Below, piece after piece: positions 3,045 to 58,590 of a stretch of DNA of 64,000 nt. The position numbers and the translations under genes were made by a program. Position 1 is the first letter of the stretch; each line of letters begins with the position of its first letter. Under the pieces are notes generated by a model. It was not told where the DNA came from, ran no database searches, and saw only the letters and a list, made by a program, of their open reading frames with translations. The stretch is from Jannaschia sp. W003. GTDB taxonomy: Bacteria > Pseudomonadota > Alphaproteobacteria > Rhodobacterales > Rhodobacteraceae. The DNA lies in the NCBI RefSeq assembly GCF_025144335.1, contig NZ_CP083539.1, positions 1,179,501 through 1,243,500 on the forward strand, in the 5' to 3' direction.

Positions 3045-3144
3045 CGCCCCGGCCTTCGAGCCGGGGCCTCGGGTGGCGGGCTGGCGCTTCGCTGCGGGTC
3101 GATGCGCCGGCGGTTGGCGGAGGCCCCGGCGCAGGGCCGGGGCG
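3045..3144. repeat. dispersed palindromic repeat, family 1 (copy A)
   Basis: Two arms, each itself a small hairpin (CCCCGG...CCGGGGCCTC and GAGGCCCCGG...CCGGGGCG), face each other around a 45-50 base centre. The same arms recur at about 37.8, 40.3, 40.4, 41.5, 48.4, 57.3 and 58.5 kb. Confidence 0.8.
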
Positions 3145-13107: not shown

Positions 13108-13212
13108 GAGGGCTCCGCCCTCCGGGCGCTGCGCGCGTCCCCAGGCGGATCGGTCCACTGGACCGATCTCAAGAAGCCTGCGGACCCCCCTCGGTATTTT
13201 CGGAACAGGGAC
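13107..13212 (+). repeat. composite intergenic repeat, family 3 (copy i), with terminator-like stem
   Basis: Begins with the stem GGAGGGC-TCC-GCCCTCC at the rodA stop codon and ends in the conserved tail CCCCTCGGTATTTTCGGAAC. A family 2 palindrome (13148-13168) lies inside. It sits between convergent rodA and the small secreted-protein gene, so the stem may serve as terminator. Confidence 0.65.
13148..13168. repeat. 21-base palindrome, family 2 (copy 1)
   Basis: GATCGGTCCA followed by a centre base and its reverse complement TGGACCGATC. Recurs at 35571 and 40265, always intergenic. Confidence 0.8.
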
Positions 13213-35511: not shown

Positions 35512-35640
35512 AGGGGGCTCTGCCCCCCGGCGCCTCCGGCGCCGACCGGGGCTTCGCCCGTCCGCGGGCGGATCGGTCCACCGGACCGATCCCAAGTTGC
35601 CCGCGGGCCCCCTCGGCATTTTGGGAACGAAGACGGGGGC
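35512..35640 (+). repeat. composite intergenic repeat, family 3 (copy v) enclosing family 2
   Basis: GGGGGCTCTGCCCCC, GCGCCTCCGGCGC, a CCGCGGGCGG stretch, the 21-base palindrome (35571-35591), then CCCCTCGGCATTTTGGGAACGAAGACGGG-type tail. Most complete copy in the window. Confidence 0.75.
35571..35591. repeat. 21-base palindrome, family 2 (copy 2)
   Basis: GATCGGTCCA then CCGGACCGATC: the same palindrome as at 13148, with one change near the centre. Confidence 0.8.
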
Positions 35641-36438: not shown

Positions 36439-39400
36439 GCCAGTCGCACCCGAACCGAGTTCGACCGGGGCCGCCAGAGCCCGCGCTCCACCGCCTCGCG
36501 CAGCCGCGCCTCGATGTCCGCGAGCGCAGGCGCGTTGTGCTCCGCGATGAAGCCGCGCACCGCCTCGTCCTCCAGCACGGCGGCATGGACGAGGTCGAAG
36601 TGGTGGTCGCGCACCGCTCCGGTCGTGGCAGCGAAGGCGAACAGGTAGTCCACCGTGGCGGCGATCTCGAAGGCGCCCTTGTAGCCGTGGCGCATGACGC
36701 CCGCGATCCACTTGGGGTTCACCACGCGCGAGCGCACCACGCGGCCGATCTCCTCCTCGAGCGAGCGGATCACGGGGCGCTCGGGACGCGAGTGGTCGTT
36801 GTGCCAGACGGGGACGCGCTCCCCGCGGATCATTTCCACGGCGGCGGCGGCCCCGCCCTCGAACTGGTAGTAGTCGTCGCTGTCGAGGAGGTCGTGCTCG
36901 CGGTTGTCCTGGTTCTGGACGATGGCCTCCACTTGGCCCAGCCGCTGGCGCAGCCCGTCGTGGTCGGCGGTGCCTTCCGCGTCCGCGCCATAGGCGTATC
37001 CCCCCCACTCAACGTAGGCCCCGCCGAGGTCCGAGGCGTCGTTCCACAGGCGCTCGTCGAGCATCGCCTGCAGCCCCGCCCCGTAGGCGCCGGGCTTCGA
37101 GCCATAGACCCGCGCGGTTCCCTCCCCGGCGCGGGCGCGGGCGGCGGCAGGGTTCTGGGCGGCGTCCTCGTCCAGTGCTTGCACCGCGCGGGCGGCGGCG
37201 TCCACGAGGGCCATCTGCTGCGGAAAGGCGTCGCGGAAGAAGCCCGAGACGCGCAAGGTGACGTCCACGCGGGGACGGCCCAGCGCGCCCTCGGGGATGA
37301 TCTCGAAGCCGGTGACGCGGCGGTTCATGGCGTCCCAGCGCGGGCGTACGCCCATCAGCGCCAGCGCCTGCGCGATGTCGTCGCCGCCCGTGCGCATGTT
37401 GGCGGTGCCCCAGGCCGTGAGCAGCATGGCGCGTGGCCAGTCGCCGTGGTCCTGCAGGTGCCGCTCGATCAGGAGGTTCGCGGACTTCCACCCCAGCTCC
37501 CACGCCGCGCGGGTGGGCACGGCGCGGCTGTCGACGGAGAAGAAGTTGCGGCCCGTGGGCAGGACGTCGGGGCGACCCCGGGTGGGGGCGCCCGAAGGGC
37601 CGGGGGAGATCGCGCGGCCGTCGAGGCCCGCGAGCAGGGACCGACGCTCCGCGGGGCCGCAGGCGTCGAGGGTCGCGCGCAACGTTGCCGCTTCCTCCAT
37701 CACGGCGGCGGAGGCGGGGCCGGGCGCCTCGGCCTCGCCGCGCAGGAGGCGCGAGACGAGATGCTCGATGCGCTCGACGGTGTCGCCGTGGGAGCGCCAG
37801 GAGCCTGGGGCATCGGGGTGGGACGAATCCGCGGTGTCGCCCCGGGCTCGATCCGGGACCTCCGTCACCGACTGCGCGTCACCTCCGAACGGCTCGCTGC
37901 CTTCGCCGGAGGCCCCGGCGCAAGGCCGGGGCGGGGCATCCCCTAGCACCGCAGGCCGCGGCCCTTCCCACGGGGCGGCCATGTCGCAGTCGAGCGGATC
38001 GAACGGGAGCCTGAGGTCCGCGGCGATCGCCCGCGGCAGGCTCTCGCCCTTCCCACGCGGCAGGCGCAGGAGAGCGGCGAGGAGATCGTCGCGCAGCCGC
38101 CCCTCGGGGCTCACGCCGAACACGTGCAGCCCGTCGCGGATCTGCGCCTCCTTCAGCTCGCAGAGATACGCGTCGAGCTTGGCCAGGTCGCCCTCGTTCC
38201 CCTCCAGGCCCGCGTCCACGTCGAGGCCGGCCACGCGGGCGAGGCTCAGGATCTCGCTCCGCAGGTAGTCGATGCGGCGCGGGTCCACGCCGGCGGCCTC
38301 GTAGTACTCGTCCACCAGCGCCTCGAGGTCGCGCATGGGCCCGTAGCTCTCGGCGCGGGTGAGGGGGGGCGTCAGGTGGTCGAGGATCACCGCCGCCGCG
38401 CGCCGCTTCGCTTGCGTCCCCTCCCCGGGATCGTTGACGATGAACGGGTAGAGGTGCGGGGTCGGGCCGAGGGCGATCTCGGGCCAGTCCTCGGCGCCGA
38501 GCGCCACGGCCCGCCCCGGCAGCCATTCGAGATTGCCGTGCTTGCCCATGTGCACCACCGCGTCGGCGCGGAACTGCGCGCGCAGCCAGAAATGAAAGGC
38601 CAAGTAGTGGTGCGGCGGCACGAGGTCGGGGGCGTGGTAGGTCTCGGTGGGGTCGACGTTGTATCCCCGCGCCGGCTGCACCCCGACAACCACGTTGCCG
38701 AACTCCAGCACCGACAGGGCGAAGTGGCCGCAGTCCACCGCGCCGGGGGCGAAGAAGGGGTCGGATTCGGGCGGGCCCCAGCGCTCCTCGACCTGCCGGC
38801 GGGCTTCCCACGGGAGCTGGCCATACTCGATCTGGTAGTCGGCCATCGACAGGGTCACGCCGCCCCGGCGCTCGGCGCGGTCCGCGAGCCAGTTGGTGGG
38901 GCCGGCGAGGATCGCGCGCATCAACGCGTCCGAGTCCGCCGGCGCGCCGCGCACTCGGTAGCCCGCCTCGCCAAGCGCTCCGAGCGCGCCCACCGTGGCG
39001 GCGGGGGTGTCGAGCCCCACGCCGTTGGCGAGGCGCCCGTCGCGGTTGGGGTAGTTGGCCAGGATCAGCGCCACGCGCCGCTCGGCGGGGGGCGTGCGGC
39101 GCAGGCGGCACCAGCGGGCGATCAGCGCGGCGGTGAAGGCGATGCGGTCGCCGGCGGCCTTCCAGGTGGCGATCGGGCACTGGGTGGCCTCGTCGAAGAA
39201 CGCCTCGCCCTTGAAGCCGAGCGCGCGGGTCAGCACGCGGCCGTCCAGCTCGGGCAGGGCCACGTTCATGGCGATGTCGCGGGCCGAGAGGCCGCTGGTG
39301 CCCGTGCGCCAGGCCTCCTCGGTGCCCGACGACAGGACCCCCTGGAACACCGGGGCCTCGTCGGCCCAGGGCTGGGCGAGCGGGTTGCCCTCGCCGGCGG

Positions 39401-40199
39401 CGAAGGAGGTGAGGTTCAGGATCGCCGCGGGCGGGGCCTCGCGGAACAGGGCCTCGAGGGTGGCCGCCGACACCGGGTCCTTCAACGAGGCCACGAAGAC
39501 GGGCATGGGGTTCAGCCCCGCCCGCAGCAGCGCCTTCACGGTGCGGTTCACGGGGTTGAGGCCGGCGCCCTGCACCAGCGCGCGGTAGAACACGAGAGGG
39601 ACGACCGGCGCGCCGTCGGTCCAAGCCGCGCGTAGGTCGGCGAGGGTCGCGGCCTCCGTGCCCGGCCAGTAGAGGCCGGCCCGCAGGAGGGGCCGCGCGG
39701 GGCCGGGGCGCGCCTCGCCGCGGATCACGGCGCGGGCGTGGGCGAGGAAGGTAGCGGCGTTCTCGGGGCCGCCCTCGACCAGCGCGGACCACAGGGCGTC
39801 GTAGTCCTCGGGTGCGACCGTCGAGAGGCCGCGCAGCTCGGCGTCGGGCTTGTCGTCGCCGGGCAGGGCGGCGAAGGGCACGCCCGCCTCGTGTAGCCGG
39901 GCGGCGTACTGCTTTAGCCCGTAGGTCCAGTAGCCCCGGCCCCCCAGCACGCGGGCGACCACCAGCTTCGAGCGCGTGGCGCACTGATCGAGGTGGAGGT
40001 CCACGCTCATGGGGTGGCGCAGGTGCATGAGCGAGACGAGACGCGTCTCGGGCGGGTCCGCCATGGCGGCGCGCGCGCCCGAGAGCGCGGCCAGCTCGGT
40101 GTCGGCGGCGGAGATGACGACCAGCTCGCCGGGGGTCTGGCCGGGATCCACGGCCTCGCCCTCGTCGATGGCGCCGGGTTGGGCGGCAAGGAGGTGCAT
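36435..40199 (-). CDS. cobN: cobaltochelatase subunit CobN, with in-frame repeat insertion
   Basis: A 1254-residue large subunit of the ATP-dependent aerobic cobaltochelatase, which inserts cobalt into hydrogenobyrinic acid a,c-diamide together with CobS/CobT-type AAA+ subunits (not in this window). Family features: 'GRGYWTYGLKQYA', 'HMGKHGNLEWLPGRAV', 'HLYPFIVNDPGEGTQAKRRA', 'ILPTGRNFFSVD'-like 'VLPTGRNFFSVDSRAVPT' and 'VWHNDHSRPERPVI'. Residues about 756-788 are encoded by a copy of the family 1 palindromic repeat; this lies in a linker between 'WEGPRPAVL' and 'GDTVERIEHL', where homologues vary. ATG 40197-40199 is the only good start. A GNAT gene is coupled downstream. Confidence 0.96.
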   Translation of the reverse strand: MHLLAAQPGAIDEGEAVDPGQTPGELVVISAADTELAALSGARAAMADPPETRLVSLMHLRHPMSVDLHLDQCATRSKLVVARVLGGRGYWTYGLKQYAARLHEAGVPFAALPGDDKPDAELRGLSTVAPEDYDALWSALVEGGPENAATFLAHARAVIRGEARPGPARPLLRAGLYWPGTEAATLADLRAAWTDGAPVVPLVFYRALVQGAGLNPVNRTVKALLRAGLNPMPVFVASLKDPVSAATLEALFREAPPAAILNLTSFAAGEGNPLAQPWADEAPVFQGVLSSGTEEAWRTGTSGLSARDIAMNVALPELDGRVLTRALGFKGEAFFDEATQCPIATWKAAGDRIAFTAALIARWCRLRRTPPAERRVALILANYPNRDGRLANGVGLDTPAATVGALGALGEAGYRVRGAPADSDALMRAILAGPTNWLADRAERRGGVTLSMADYQIEYGQLPWEARRQVEERWGPPESDPFFAPGAVDCGHFALSVLEFGNVVVGVQPARGYNVDPTETYHAPDLVPPHHYLAFHFWLRAQFRADAVVHMGKHGNLEWLPGRAVALGAEDWPEIALGPTPHLYPFIVNDPGEGTQAKRRAAAVILDHLTPPLTRAESYGPMRDLEALVDEYYEAAGVDPRRIDYLRSEILSLARVAGLDVDAGLEGNEGDLAKLDAYLCELKEAQIRDGLHVFGVSPEGRLRDDLLAALLRLPRGKGESLPRAIAADLRLPFDPLDCDMAAPWEGPRPAVLGDAPPRPCAGASGEGSEPFGGDAQSVTEVPDRARGDTADSSHPDAPGSWRSHGDTVERIEHLVSRLLRGEAEAPGPASAAVMEEAATLRATLDACGPAERRSLLAGLDGRAISPGPSGAPTRGRPDVLPTGRNFFSVDSRAVPTRAAWELGWKSANLLIERHLQDHGDWPRAMLLTAWGTANMRTGGDDIAQALALMGVRPRWDAMNRRVTGFEIIPEGALGRPRVDVTLRVSGFFRDAFPQQMALVDAAARAVQALDEDAAQNPAAARARAGEGTARVYGSKPGAYGAGLQAMLDERLWNDASDLGGAYVEWGGYAYGADAEGTADHDGLRQRLGQVEAIVQNQDNREHDLLDSDDYYQFEGGAAAAVEMIRGERVPVWHNDHSRPERPVIRSLEEEIGRVVRSRVVNPKWIAGVMRHGYKGAFEIAATVDYLFAFAATTGAVRDHHFDLVHAAVLEDEAVRGFIAEHNAPALADIEARLREAVERGLWRPRSNSVRVRLA
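37837..37934. repeat. family 1 palindromic repeat inside cobN (in frame)
   Basis: Left arm CGCCCCGGG...CCGGGACCTCCG and right arm CGGAGGCCCCGG...CCGGGGCGG, with CTCCGTCACC after the left arm as in the intergenic copy at 57.3 kb (opposite strand). It adds about 33 codons to cobN without breaking the frame. Confidence 0.85.
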
Positions 40200-40264
40200 G
40201 GGGGCGTCATGGCAGGTGAGGTGGCGGGTGCAAGTGGGTGAGGGCGGTCCGGCGCAGGCGGACG

Positions 40265-40285
40265 GATCGGTCCAATGGACCGATC
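40265..40285. repeat. 21-base palindrome, family 2 (copy 3)
   Basis: GATCGGTCCA, centre A, TGGACCGATC. Lies 66 bases before the cobN ATG. Confidence 0.8.
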
Positions 40286-40316
40286 CGAGCCTGAACGCGC
40301 GAAGCGCTGGGGGGGC

Positions 40317-40422
40317 GACGCGCGCCTCGGACTCGATCCGGGGCCTCTGGCCGGGGGTGGAACTATGGTTGCGGAGCGAAGCGCCCCTAGTGGGCCGAGG
40401 CCCCGGCGCAGGGGCCGGGGCG
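40317..40422. repeat. family 1 repeat (copy B1)
   Basis: Degenerate left arm (CTCGGACTCGATCCGGGGCCTC) and intact right arm (GAGGCCCCGGCGCAGGGGCC...). First of a tandem pair. Confidence 0.7.
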
Positions 40423-40438: not shown

Positions 40439-40540
40439 CACGCCCCGGACCTGATCCAGGGCCTCTGGTTGCCGATGGTGCTGCCGTCGCCGAGCGGGGT
40501 GCCTCCGGCGAGCAGAGACCCCGGCGCAAGGCCGGGGCAC
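40439..40540. repeat. family 1 repeat (copy B2)
   Basis: Left arm CACGCCCCGGACCTGATCC, right arm GACCCCGGCGCAAGGCCGGG. Tandem with B1, separated by 16 bases. Confidence 0.75.
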
Positions 40541-40588: not shown

Positions 40589-41500
40589 ATGAAACCCGAT
40601 CTCTCCGACGACGTCGCTCGCGCGCTCGCCACCGGGGCCCCCGTGGTGGCCCTCGAATCCACGATCCTCAGCCACGGCATGCCCTGGCCTCGCAACGCCG
40701 AGGTGGGCCGCGCCGTGGAGGACGCCGTGCGCGCCGAGGGCGCCGTGCCCGCCACCGTGGCCGTGGTCGAGGGGCGCCTGCGCGCCGGCCTCGGGGCGGC
40801 GGACATCGAGCGGCTGGGGCACGGTGAGGGCGTCGTGAAGGCCGCCTCGCGCGACCTCGGGGCGGCCGTGGCCCTCGGGCGCACCGCCGGCACGACGGTC
40901 TCGGCCACCATGCGGATCGCGCGGCTCGCGGGCATCGGCGTGTTCGCCACGGGCGGCATCGGCGGCGTGCACCGGGGCGAGGGGGGCGACGTGAGCGCCG
41001 ACCTCACGGAACTGGCCGCCACGGACGTGCTGGTGGTCTGCGCGGGCGTGAAGTCGATCCTCGACATCCCCCGCACGCTGGAGATGCTCGAGACGCTGCG
41101 GGTGCCGGTCGTCACCTACGGCTCGGACCGCTTCCCGGCCTTCTACACCCGCGACTCGGGCTGCGCGTCGCCGGAGCGTCTGGACACGTCCGAGCAGATC
41201 GCCGCCGTGCGCGCCGCGACCCGCGCCACGGGGCTCGGGACCGGCATGCTGGTCGCCAACCCGATCCCGGAGGCCCATGCGCTCCCGGCAGAGGAGATCG
41301 GCGCCGAGATCGACGCCGCCCTGCGCGCCGCCGAGGCGGAAGGCGTGCGCGGCAAGGACGTGACGCCGTTCCTGCTCGGGCGTCTCAACGCCGTGACCGA
41401 GGGCCGGGCGCTCGGGGCGAACGTGGAACTGGTGCTGTCGAACGCCCGGCTGGCCGCGCGCATCGCGGTGGCGGAGGCGTCGAGCGGGACCTGGGTGTAG
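40589..41500 (+). CDS. psuG: pseudouridine-5'-phosphate glycosidase
   Basis: A 303-residue enzyme that reversibly splits pseudouridine 5'-phosphate into uracil and ribose 5-phosphate. Landmarks: 'VVALESTILSHGMPWPRNAE' at the start, 'KAASRDLGAAVALGRTAGTTVSATM', 'FATGGIGGVHRGE' and 'GTGMLVANPIPEAHALPAEEI'. No psuK kinase gene is adjacent. It is the only plus-strand gene between cobN and cobW and probably has its own promoter. Confidence 0.95.
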   Translation: MKPDLSDDVARALATGAPVVALESTILSHGMPWPRNAEVGRAVEDAVRAEGAVPATVAVVEGRLRAGLGAADIERLGHGEGVVKAASRDLGAAVALGRTAGTTVSATMRIARLAGIGVFATGGIGGVHRGEGGDVSADLTELAATDVLVVCAGVKSILDIPRTLEMLETLRVPVVTYGSDRFPAFYTRDSGCASPERLDTSEQIAAVRAATRATGLGTGMLVANPIPEAHALPAEEIGAEIDAALRAAEAEGVRGKDVTPFLLGRLNAVTEGRALGANVELVLSNARLAARIAVAEASSGTWV

Positions 41501-41524: not shown

Positions 41525-41633
41525 CGCCCCGGACATGATCCGGGGCCTCCGGCCGATGCCGGCGCTTCGGATGCGGAGCGGAGCGCGGGCGGTGGACCGA
41601 GGCCCCGGCGCAAGGCCGGGGCGTGTTGGTGAC
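41525..41633. repeat. family 1 repeat (copy C)
   Basis: Left arm CGCCCCGGACATGATCCGGG, right arm GAGGCCCCGGCGCAAGGCCG. A standard copy with centre GCCGGCGCTTCGGATGCGGA. Confidence 0.8.
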
Positions 41634-43667: not shown

Positions 43668-44124
43668 GTCTGTCCCCTTCGGACGAGCGTTGAAGGGGGG
43701 TGCGGAGCGGGGCGTGCGCGGCCCGGCTACGGATCACCCCGTCCGTATGGCGTTCCCCGCGCCCCGTGGGGGGACGCGGTGCGCGGCTGGTCTCCCGGCT
43801 CGCGGGTCGTCGCCCTCCGCCGCCTTCCCGGTTTCCCAGTGGCCCTTGGCGGAGCGCTCGCCGCTCACGGTCGCGGGGGCGGCTGCGGCACGGGACCCCG
43901 GCGTGGGTCGTCCCTTCCGCATTCCCACTTCGTCCCCTCCGGGCTTGGCCCGGGCGGGGAACCGCACGCCTCCGTTCCTGCGCGCCGCCGCGCGGGCGGT
44001 CAAGCGCCGAGGCGGCCGGCGGTGGCGCGAAAGCGACGCCGCGCGCCCGATGCGCCCCCGGCCCGCTTGACCCCGCCGCCGCCGCGCCCCCACGGTGCTT
44101 GCCCGCAACCCCGAGGGAGCCCGC
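43668..44124. other. regulatory region between divergent hupE and smc
   Basis: A 457-base gap. The minus strand carries the cobalamin riboswitch (43778-43970) and, at 43668-43777, its expression platform with a GC-rich stem near 43750-43780 and the hupE ribosome site AAGGGGAC. Bases 43971-44124 hold the promoters of both units; a lone TTGACC near 44067 faces smc, without a clear -10. Confidence 0.6.
43778..43970 (-). ncRNA. cobalamin (B12) riboswitch upstream of hupE-cobW
   Basis: On the minus strand the conserved blocks appear in order: GGCGTGCGG (5' arm of P1), GGGAATGCGG, CCGGGGTCCCGTGCCGCAG, CCCCCGCGACCGTGA (core), GCCACTG, CCGGGAAGG and the B12 box GACGACCCGCGAGCCGGGAG followed by ACCAGCC. 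CCGCGCACC (3' arm) pairs with the 5' arm in eight of nine positions. This is the adenosyl/methylcobalamin-sensing aptamer; with B12 bound, expression of hupE and cobW should fall. Confidence 0.93.
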
Positions 44125-57274: not shown

Positions 57275-57375
57275 CACGCCCCGGCCACGCGCCGGGGCCT
57301 CGGGATGCCGCTCGCGCTTCGCTGTGGATCGGAGCGCCATCGGGTGACGGAGGCCCCGGATCAAGTCCGGGACGC
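57275..57375. repeat. family 1 repeat (copy E)
   Basis: Left arm CACGCCCCGGCCACGCGCCG, right arm GGAGGCCCCGGATCAAGTCC. Directly downstream of the TlpA-like gene. Its inverse is the closest match to the copy inside cobN. Confidence 0.8.
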
Positions 57376-58450: not shown

Positions 58451-58590
58451 ATGCCCCGGCCCTGCGCCGGGGCCTCCGCCTGCCGCGGGCGGTGGGCATG
58501 GTTGCGGCGCACACGCCTGGTCGGCTTTCCGCCTACGAGGCGACGTTTCGACCAACTGCCCCCGGAGGCCCCAGCGCGAAGCCGGGGCGA
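58451..58590. repeat. family 1 repeat (copy F, long)
   Basis: Left arm GCCCCGGCCCTGCGCCGGGG, right arm GGAGGCCCCAGCGCGAAGCC, with a longer centre (about 90 bases) than other copies. Between mcl1 and accA. Confidence 0.7.

Follow-up and report, generated by a model that had tools for sequence, protein, structure and literature searches.

A dispersed palindromic repeat read in frame within cobN of a Jannaschia genome, and palindromes at the same two CobN loops in other genera

The cobN gene and its in-frame element

Jannaschia sp. W003 is a marine bacterium with a genome (G000) of 3.42 Mb, of which a stretch of 64,000 nt, referred to here as the window, was analyzed. The minus strand of the window carries cobN, which encodes cobaltochelatase subunit CobN (PF02514; 36435-40199, stop codon included, start at 40199). 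The protein has 1254 amino acids and a single Pfam domain, CobN-Mg_chel, at residues 140-1247. A search for its sequence found only the one from this genome (one member, one contig), and the closest named CobN relatives belong to Jannaschia species. Upstream of cobN, on the other strand (40621-41477, plus strand), lies a gene that resembles one for a pseudouridine-5'-phosphate glycosidase. A search of the whole window against Rfam at the gathering score returned only a cobalamin riboswitch near the cob genes (RF00174, 67.6 bits; 43768-43981, minus strand) and no family match for the element described below.

Within cobN lies a copy of a palindromic repeat, family 1 (37837-37934, minus strand), that corresponds in frame to residues 756-788 of the 1254-residue CobN. 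On the plus strand the first arm of the element (37838-37862) is itself a hairpin, CGCCCCGG..TCCGGGACCTC, and the second arm (37909-37933) is the hairpin GAGGCCCCGGCGCAAGGCCGGGGCG, which is strongly conserved across the family. The element is stop-free in the frame used, and the insert is a multiple of three. An earlier sequence-only reading of this DNA had given the position, the frame and the residue numbers of the element correctly. It had also put the addition to the protein at about 33 residues. This number is indeed what the 98-nt element supplies, but compared with the common short loop the protein gains about 41-44 residues net.

An AlphaFold2 model of residues 55-1254, built on 40 sequences, has a moderate mean pLDDT of 72. 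The pLDDT is below 50 at residues 757-799, one of 16 such segments in the model. This segment sits between a short helix and a helix at residues 804-820 (37740-37790, minus strand; residues 750-766 of the model, offset 54) that separates the loop holding the insertion, loop A, from the loop that comes next, loop B (residues 821-827; 37719-37739, minus strand). Loop B has no insertion in this protein and is the site of palindromic insertions in Meinhardsimonia, in the genera G104 and G350, and in Wenxinia marina. The five inserted segments that were tested are hydrophilic, with 71-84% disorder-promoting residues. With inserts of this kind and a low-pLDDT loop A in the model, both CobN loops look permissive.

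The repeat family in the Jannaschia genome

In the family-1 consensus, which starts with CGCCCCGG and finishes with CCGGGGCG, two arms, each about 25 nt long, flank a variable centre in which CGGAGCGNAGCGC is moderately conserved. The arms pair with each other as terminal inverted repeats and also within themselves, each arm being a hairpin. At one hairpin base pair, pairing is kept through changes on both sides in 19 of 39 sequences, which speaks for maintenance of the hairpin itself. Besides the copy in cobN, the window holds intergenic copies at 3045-3143, 40323-40419, 40441-40538 and 41525-41622 on the plus strand, the second and third of them upstream of cobN, and at 57278-57373 and 58453-58589 on the minus strand, the last with an enlarged centre. 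These are the sites that the sequence-only reading had listed as matches of the 98-base element, and all six are real.

Starting from six copies of the window, a profile search of the window and 30 stretches yielded 52 copies, and 39 more stretches brought the number to 111, of which 99 are full-length. This survey covered 70 sequences (397,649 bases including the window) chosen around matches. Eleven of 14 further stretches gave extra copies, mostly weak or partial and all called non-coding, while three (L262, L264 and L271) had no profile match; the pattern match in L271 lies inside a gene. Genome-wide, the arm pattern with at most two mismatches has 182 + 175 = 357 matches against 7 + 8 = 15 for a reversed control, so the genome probably contains more than 111 copies. 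Absence of the repeat elsewhere, which the sequence-only reading had named as a point against itself, is thus not what the search returned. A genome-wide covariance search gave at least 150 scored candidates. When the best 150 candidates per genome were taken from 20 genomes of the genus, five had family-1 matches (148 in this genome versus 10, 2, 2 and 2), and in this comparison the repeat is nearly confined to the Jannaschia genome described here.

The copies were placed by an automatic six-frame coding model trained on the fetched stretches. By this model 56 of the 111 copies lie between convergent genes, 42 between tandem genes and 10 between divergent genes, one is at an edge and two are called coding. 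On reading, one of these two (L237) proved to be intergenic, with a stop codon on one side and the start of the next gene on the other. Copies inside reading frames, which the sequence-only reading had proposed to count, therefore number 1 of 111, and the cobN copy is the sole one within a gene among the stretches read. For the 56 convergent copies the median distance to the nearest gene end, as set by the coding model, is 20 nt. Because the copies read outside cobN are intergenic and often stand just behind gene ends, the usual effect of the repeat, if any, would be at transcript 3' ends. Each of the six frames is open in 19 to 37 of the 40 copies that are no longer than 104 nt. Copies of the family are thus usually stop-free, and readability is no sign of adaptation to coding.

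The means by which family 1 moves was also considered. The idea that family 1 generally duplicates its target site was rejected, since flanking direct repeats over 52 copies are at chance level. Movement driven by a RAYT was rejected as well, because the Y1_Tnp profile (PF01797, RAYT-type transposase) has no match in this genome; the same profile has matches in five of 14 control genomes.

The cobN copy is among the more divergent ones (rank 88 of the 99 full-length copies), and its centre is divergent. It nevertheless scores 31.6 bits with a leave-one-out profile built from the 51 other copies, whereas when the codons of cobN were shuffled synonymously 200 times, 176 of the shuffles gave any match and the top score was 14.0 bits. 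By BLAST, the best match to the cobN element elsewhere in the genome has 77% identity over 96 nt (E 9e-11). The likeness of the cobN element to the repeat family is beyond chance.

A second palindromic repeat, GGATCGGTCCANNGGACCGATC, occurs in non-coding DNA of the window at 13125-13189, 35548-35612 and 40258-40299. Two of these three places precede a cobO-like gene and cobN, and the sequence could represent a further repeat family or an operator that these genes share.

The two CobN loops in relatives

Relatives of CobN were compared in an alignment of 105 sequences, which remained from 110 CobN-like translations after three fragments (L051, L052 and L056) and two duplicates (L060 and L066) were dropped. 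From the motif DCDMAAPW to the end of the next helix, 96 of the 105 have 37-42 residues, compared with 82 here, and these 96 are without the segment. The same span is 59-63 residues in four other Jannaschia, 73 in Tropicimonas, 48 in one sequence, and 0 and 12 in two divergent ones. The best 120 protein matches give a similar picture, loop A having 11-14 residues in 111 of them, 55 here and 15-48 in the other eight. The alignment with 9uk9, the closest solved CobN, runs over 1-757 and 797-1253 and omits the inserted segment. That the repeat is read through between two conserved blocks of CobN, as the sequence-only reading had proposed, is supported by this alignment. A protein search with the inserted segment of this genome matched only itself.

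The four Jannaschia relatives with a longer loop A (L031-L034) have 20-24 extra residues there, in sequences that are unlike each other. The sequence-only reading had held that equally long sequence in relatives would count against an insertion; these four do carry extra residues. A search of their longer loops with the repeat profile gave no match, and the idea that they are repeat remnants was rejected for this reason. On the tree, L031-L034 are scattered among relatives with a short loop. Taken together, these observations suggest that the labile loop was expanded separately in each of the four, and loop A appears to change its length readily. Another loop is affected in P0023, a Jannaschia-like CobN available as protein only, which has a 116-residue insertion rich in Pro, Ala and Glu after its own residue 488.

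In the 105 CobN, every insertion of 10 or more residues was scanned for stems of at least 12 bp, and further cases were recognized on reading. Stems of this length inside CobN were found only at loop A, in Tropicimonas, and at loop B near residue 822, in Meinhardsimonia. Capture of a palindrome inside CobN, which the sequence-only reading had described for the present genome, is not unique to it, as other genera carry other palindromes at these loops.

Within a 46-residue insertion in loop B, Meinhardsimonia xiamenensis (L068) carries a palindrome that occurs at least 22 times in the genome of this species, counting the copy in cobN. A position was determined for 23 distinct copies (the copy before cobN, which is present in both L068 and L294, being counted once): the call was non-coding for 20, reading showed two more to be intergenic, and the cobN copy alone was in a gene. 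The copy directly before the cobN start (L068 2902-2978) is inverted with respect to the in-gene copy. A related palindrome is found in loop B of G104 and G350. That of G350 has 81% identity to the Meinhardsimonia palindrome over 84 nt and has further copies in its genome, three of which are in readable places, all non-coding; G104 has two weak further copies. The Jannaschia and G350 elements share only matches of 7-8 bases. Judged by their sequences, the Jannaschia and Meinhardsimonia repeats are unrelated, and both are otherwise intergenic among the copies read. Between G104 and G350, the cobN palindrome is 96% identical (L275 3380-3553 and L277 2264-2422) and a nearby 100-nt stretch of cobN 87%, so that by nucleotide identity the insertion has changed less than the surrounding gene.

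Two further species carry palindromes of other kinds. The 15-residue insertion in loop B of Wenxinia marina (L119) is built of small palindromes and has three partial copies elsewhere, two of which were called coding by the automatic model; all three are intergenic on reading. Tropicimonas sediminicola (L116) has a perfect 21-bp stem in frame in loop A. The best other match to it has an E value of 0.0019; it was therefore rejected as a dispersed repeat and counted only as a palindrome. A protein-only case is P0033, a metagenomic CobN labelled Aliiroseovarius, which has EGGRISRPPWGAGSGANRIAGDP in loop B, with 23 residues identical to G104. A search of 5.8 billion proteins with the EGGRISRPPWGAGSGANRIAGDP segment (candidates within a length window that share words with it) returned only the CobN of P0033 and G104.

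On the CobN tree (FastTree supports, one gene) G104 and G350 are sisters. The sister of P0033, P0025 (support 0.919), and the sister of Meinhardsimonia, P0098 (support 0.983), are both without the insertion. This distribution suggests four to six independent captures. There would be four if all loop B cases of the Meinhardsimonia-type family go back to one old gain followed by losses, and six if each is separate; the cases of Jannaschia, Tropicimonas and Wenxinia are counted in both numbers.

The strength of folding along the gene was scanned in 59,190 windows of 90 nt from 110 cobN loci, with GC correction and with the windows sorted by alignment. Ten of 120 loci were left out, namely L051, L052, L056, L060 and L066, the divergent L058 and L059, the duplicates L112 and L280, and the fragment L283. 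Values of z < -4 were found in 7 of 1917 windows of the loop region (three loci: Meinhardsimonia, Tropicimonas and G350) and in 0 of 25,163 windows of the rest of cobN, and in the flanks in 4 of 28,126 windows of ORFs (three loci) and 4 of 3984 of intergenic DNA (three loci). At z < -3 there were 14 windows in the loop region (7 loci), 17 in the rest of cobN (15 loci), 53 in flanking ORFs (33 loci) and 24 in intergenic DNA (15 loci); as the windows overlap, the numbers of loci are safer than the counts of windows. Inspection of twelve flanking-ORF stretches that exceeded the threshold showed none that is clearly an insertion within a gene; one (L121) is at the 3' end of an ORF. In this comparison, which was made within cobN loci after CobN had been looked at first, the CobN loops resemble intergenic DNA more than they resemble the rest of cobN. 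The Jannaschia loop is inconspicuous in the scan, with a lowest z of -1.05, likely because the 90-nt window is shorter than the 98-nt element.

Capture of palindromes by CobN and comparison with known repeats

It is highly probable that residues 756-788 derive from a dispersed palindromic repeat of about 98 nt that was inserted in frame in cobN and is likely tolerated there, and that unrelated palindromes have been captured repeatedly at the two loops of CobN. The insertion would have occurred in this Jannaschia lineage after its split from the sequenced relatives, and it is likely recent, since the repeat is nearly confined to this genome. Most likely the repeat spreads between genes, where hairpins behind gene ends may be harmless or mildly useful. 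Copies within genes would be purged by selection, the cobN loops being among the few places that tolerate an in-frame copy. CobN is presumably made in full and works, the element forming, after translation, a hydrophilic and flexible loop about 33-42 residues long that is merely tolerated; inside cobN it most likely does nothing useful. The two loops that accept insertions flank the helix at residues 804-820, and palindromes unrelated to one another have been captured beside it several times in the Rhodobacteraceae. Thus, DNA repeats that lie outside any protein would become protein in free-living bacteria, and they would do so in a B12 enzyme that has a solved relative. Several unrelated repeats at the same two loops would also constitute a natural replicate experiment on whether these loops are a harmless place, the target of an aimed insertion or a site where an insertion is beneficial. 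Extra CobN segments in annotations may be captured repeats, which is a warning for their interpretation.

A stronger proposal is that the two loops are a true landing place for mobile palindromes in the Rhodobacteraceae, either by preferred insertion or because the loop is useful, and that the palindromes become new protein there; this is possible but doubtful. Less probable again is that the insertion is functional in itself, the mRNA hairpin or the loop tuning CobN translation or the assembly with CobS/CobT, and that capture reflects selection or site-directed insertion. The putative four to six captures at two adjacent loops would fit such a function, and the greater identity of the G104/G350 element than of nearby cobN points the same way. 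So does the strong folding of the element in the mRNA sense, with a z of -3.9 when it is folded whole and -3.0 to -7.1 for the four other insertions tested. However, the sequences captured from the two dispersed families are unrelated, most relatives do without an insertion, and both loops vary in length without palindromes as well.

There is very little chance that the segment arose by low-complexity expansion of the labile loop itself and resembles the repeat only through GC richness. The genome is GC-rich and loop A has lengthened repeatedly in Jannaschia by unrelated sequence (L031-L034), but those expansions do not match the profile, while in the cobN element both arms and their spacing match over 98 nt. 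The BLAST match also speaks against this explanation, and the shuffle test, with 31.6 bits against at most 14.0, largely refutes it.

Inserted repeat DNA that is translated, the preferred reading, also has to be set against the idea that the palindrome is missing from the final protein, through ribosome skipping or through its precise loss in part of the population. Such skipping or loss could take place between two copies of the direct repeat GATGCCCC (37933-37940 and 37807-37814), which bound a region on the minus strand (37807-37940) around the hairpin. The two copies are in the same frame and 126 nt, or 42 codons, apart, and deletion of one such 126-nt unit would leave a stretch of 21 residues, the normal loop length (20-22 in relatives). 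On the other hand, an 8-nt flanking repeat of this kind is at chance level, being expected in 1.9 of 52 copies, and the insert is stop-free and a multiple of three, which skipping would not need. We know of no case of ribosome skipping or of such a loss in a bacterial housekeeping gene, and this explanation is scarcely credible. Equally improbable is a sequencing or assembly artefact, which a single genome and repeat-rich sequence might invite, since the insert is in frame and lies inside a 3.25-Mb contig and the element has its own substitutions and is no copy of another locus.

In-frame palindromes are already known from Rickettsia, Wolbachia, MITEs and REPs; what is new is their repeated capture by the two loops of one enzyme. 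A literature search found no report of a palindromic insertion in CobN, in agreement with the sequence-only reading, and the main text of a survey of REPs does not name CobN, the target ORFs being listed in its supplement (PMC3733652). The published systems are compared below as they are described in portions of the cited papers.

The palindromic elements of Rickettsia (RPE) and Wolbachia are dispersed palindromes of about 100-150 nt, some of them read in frame within conserved proteins at solvent-exposed places, for which hot spots have been suspected (PMC3767692, PMC2229807). In these respects they are like the cobN element. Of the RPEs first reported, almost half were insertions in ORFs (reviewed in PMC10969869), whereas 1 of 111 family-1 copies is in a gene. 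The likeness to the Rickettsia elements that the sequence-only reading had drawn holds for the kind of event and does not extend to family membership, RPEs having been likened by description only. The organism also differs, and in CobN two unrelated repeat families have entered the same enzyme.

REPs, which carry GTAG/CGTC, are found mostly between convergent or tandem genes and close behind gene ends, as is family 1, and some are intragenic; in two Xanthomonas species, different REPs even occupy roughly the same position in recB (PMC3733652). Family 1 differs from them in its length of about 98 nt with two hairpin arms, in having no GTAG or CGTC tag at its consensus ends and in the lack of a Y1 transposase. 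Bacterial MITEs such as Correia/NEMIS and ERIC/RU-1 are small, non-autonomous palindromes that form in-frame fusions with conserved genes (PMC2229807, PMC10969869). Terminal inverted repeats are common to MITEs and family 1, but target duplication is not above chance in the 52 family-1 copies.

Other repeats of this kind occur in Alphaproteobacteria. The CIR of Caulobacter exposes a GANTC motif (PMC2229807), whereas no GANTC was seen by eye in the family-1 majority consensus. In Bradyrhizobium, Br-REP1 is located between convergent genes (PMC5082802). Compared by description, Br-REP and RIME are both like family 1 in being alphaproteobacterial intergenic repeats. RIME contains two palindromes in about 100 nt.
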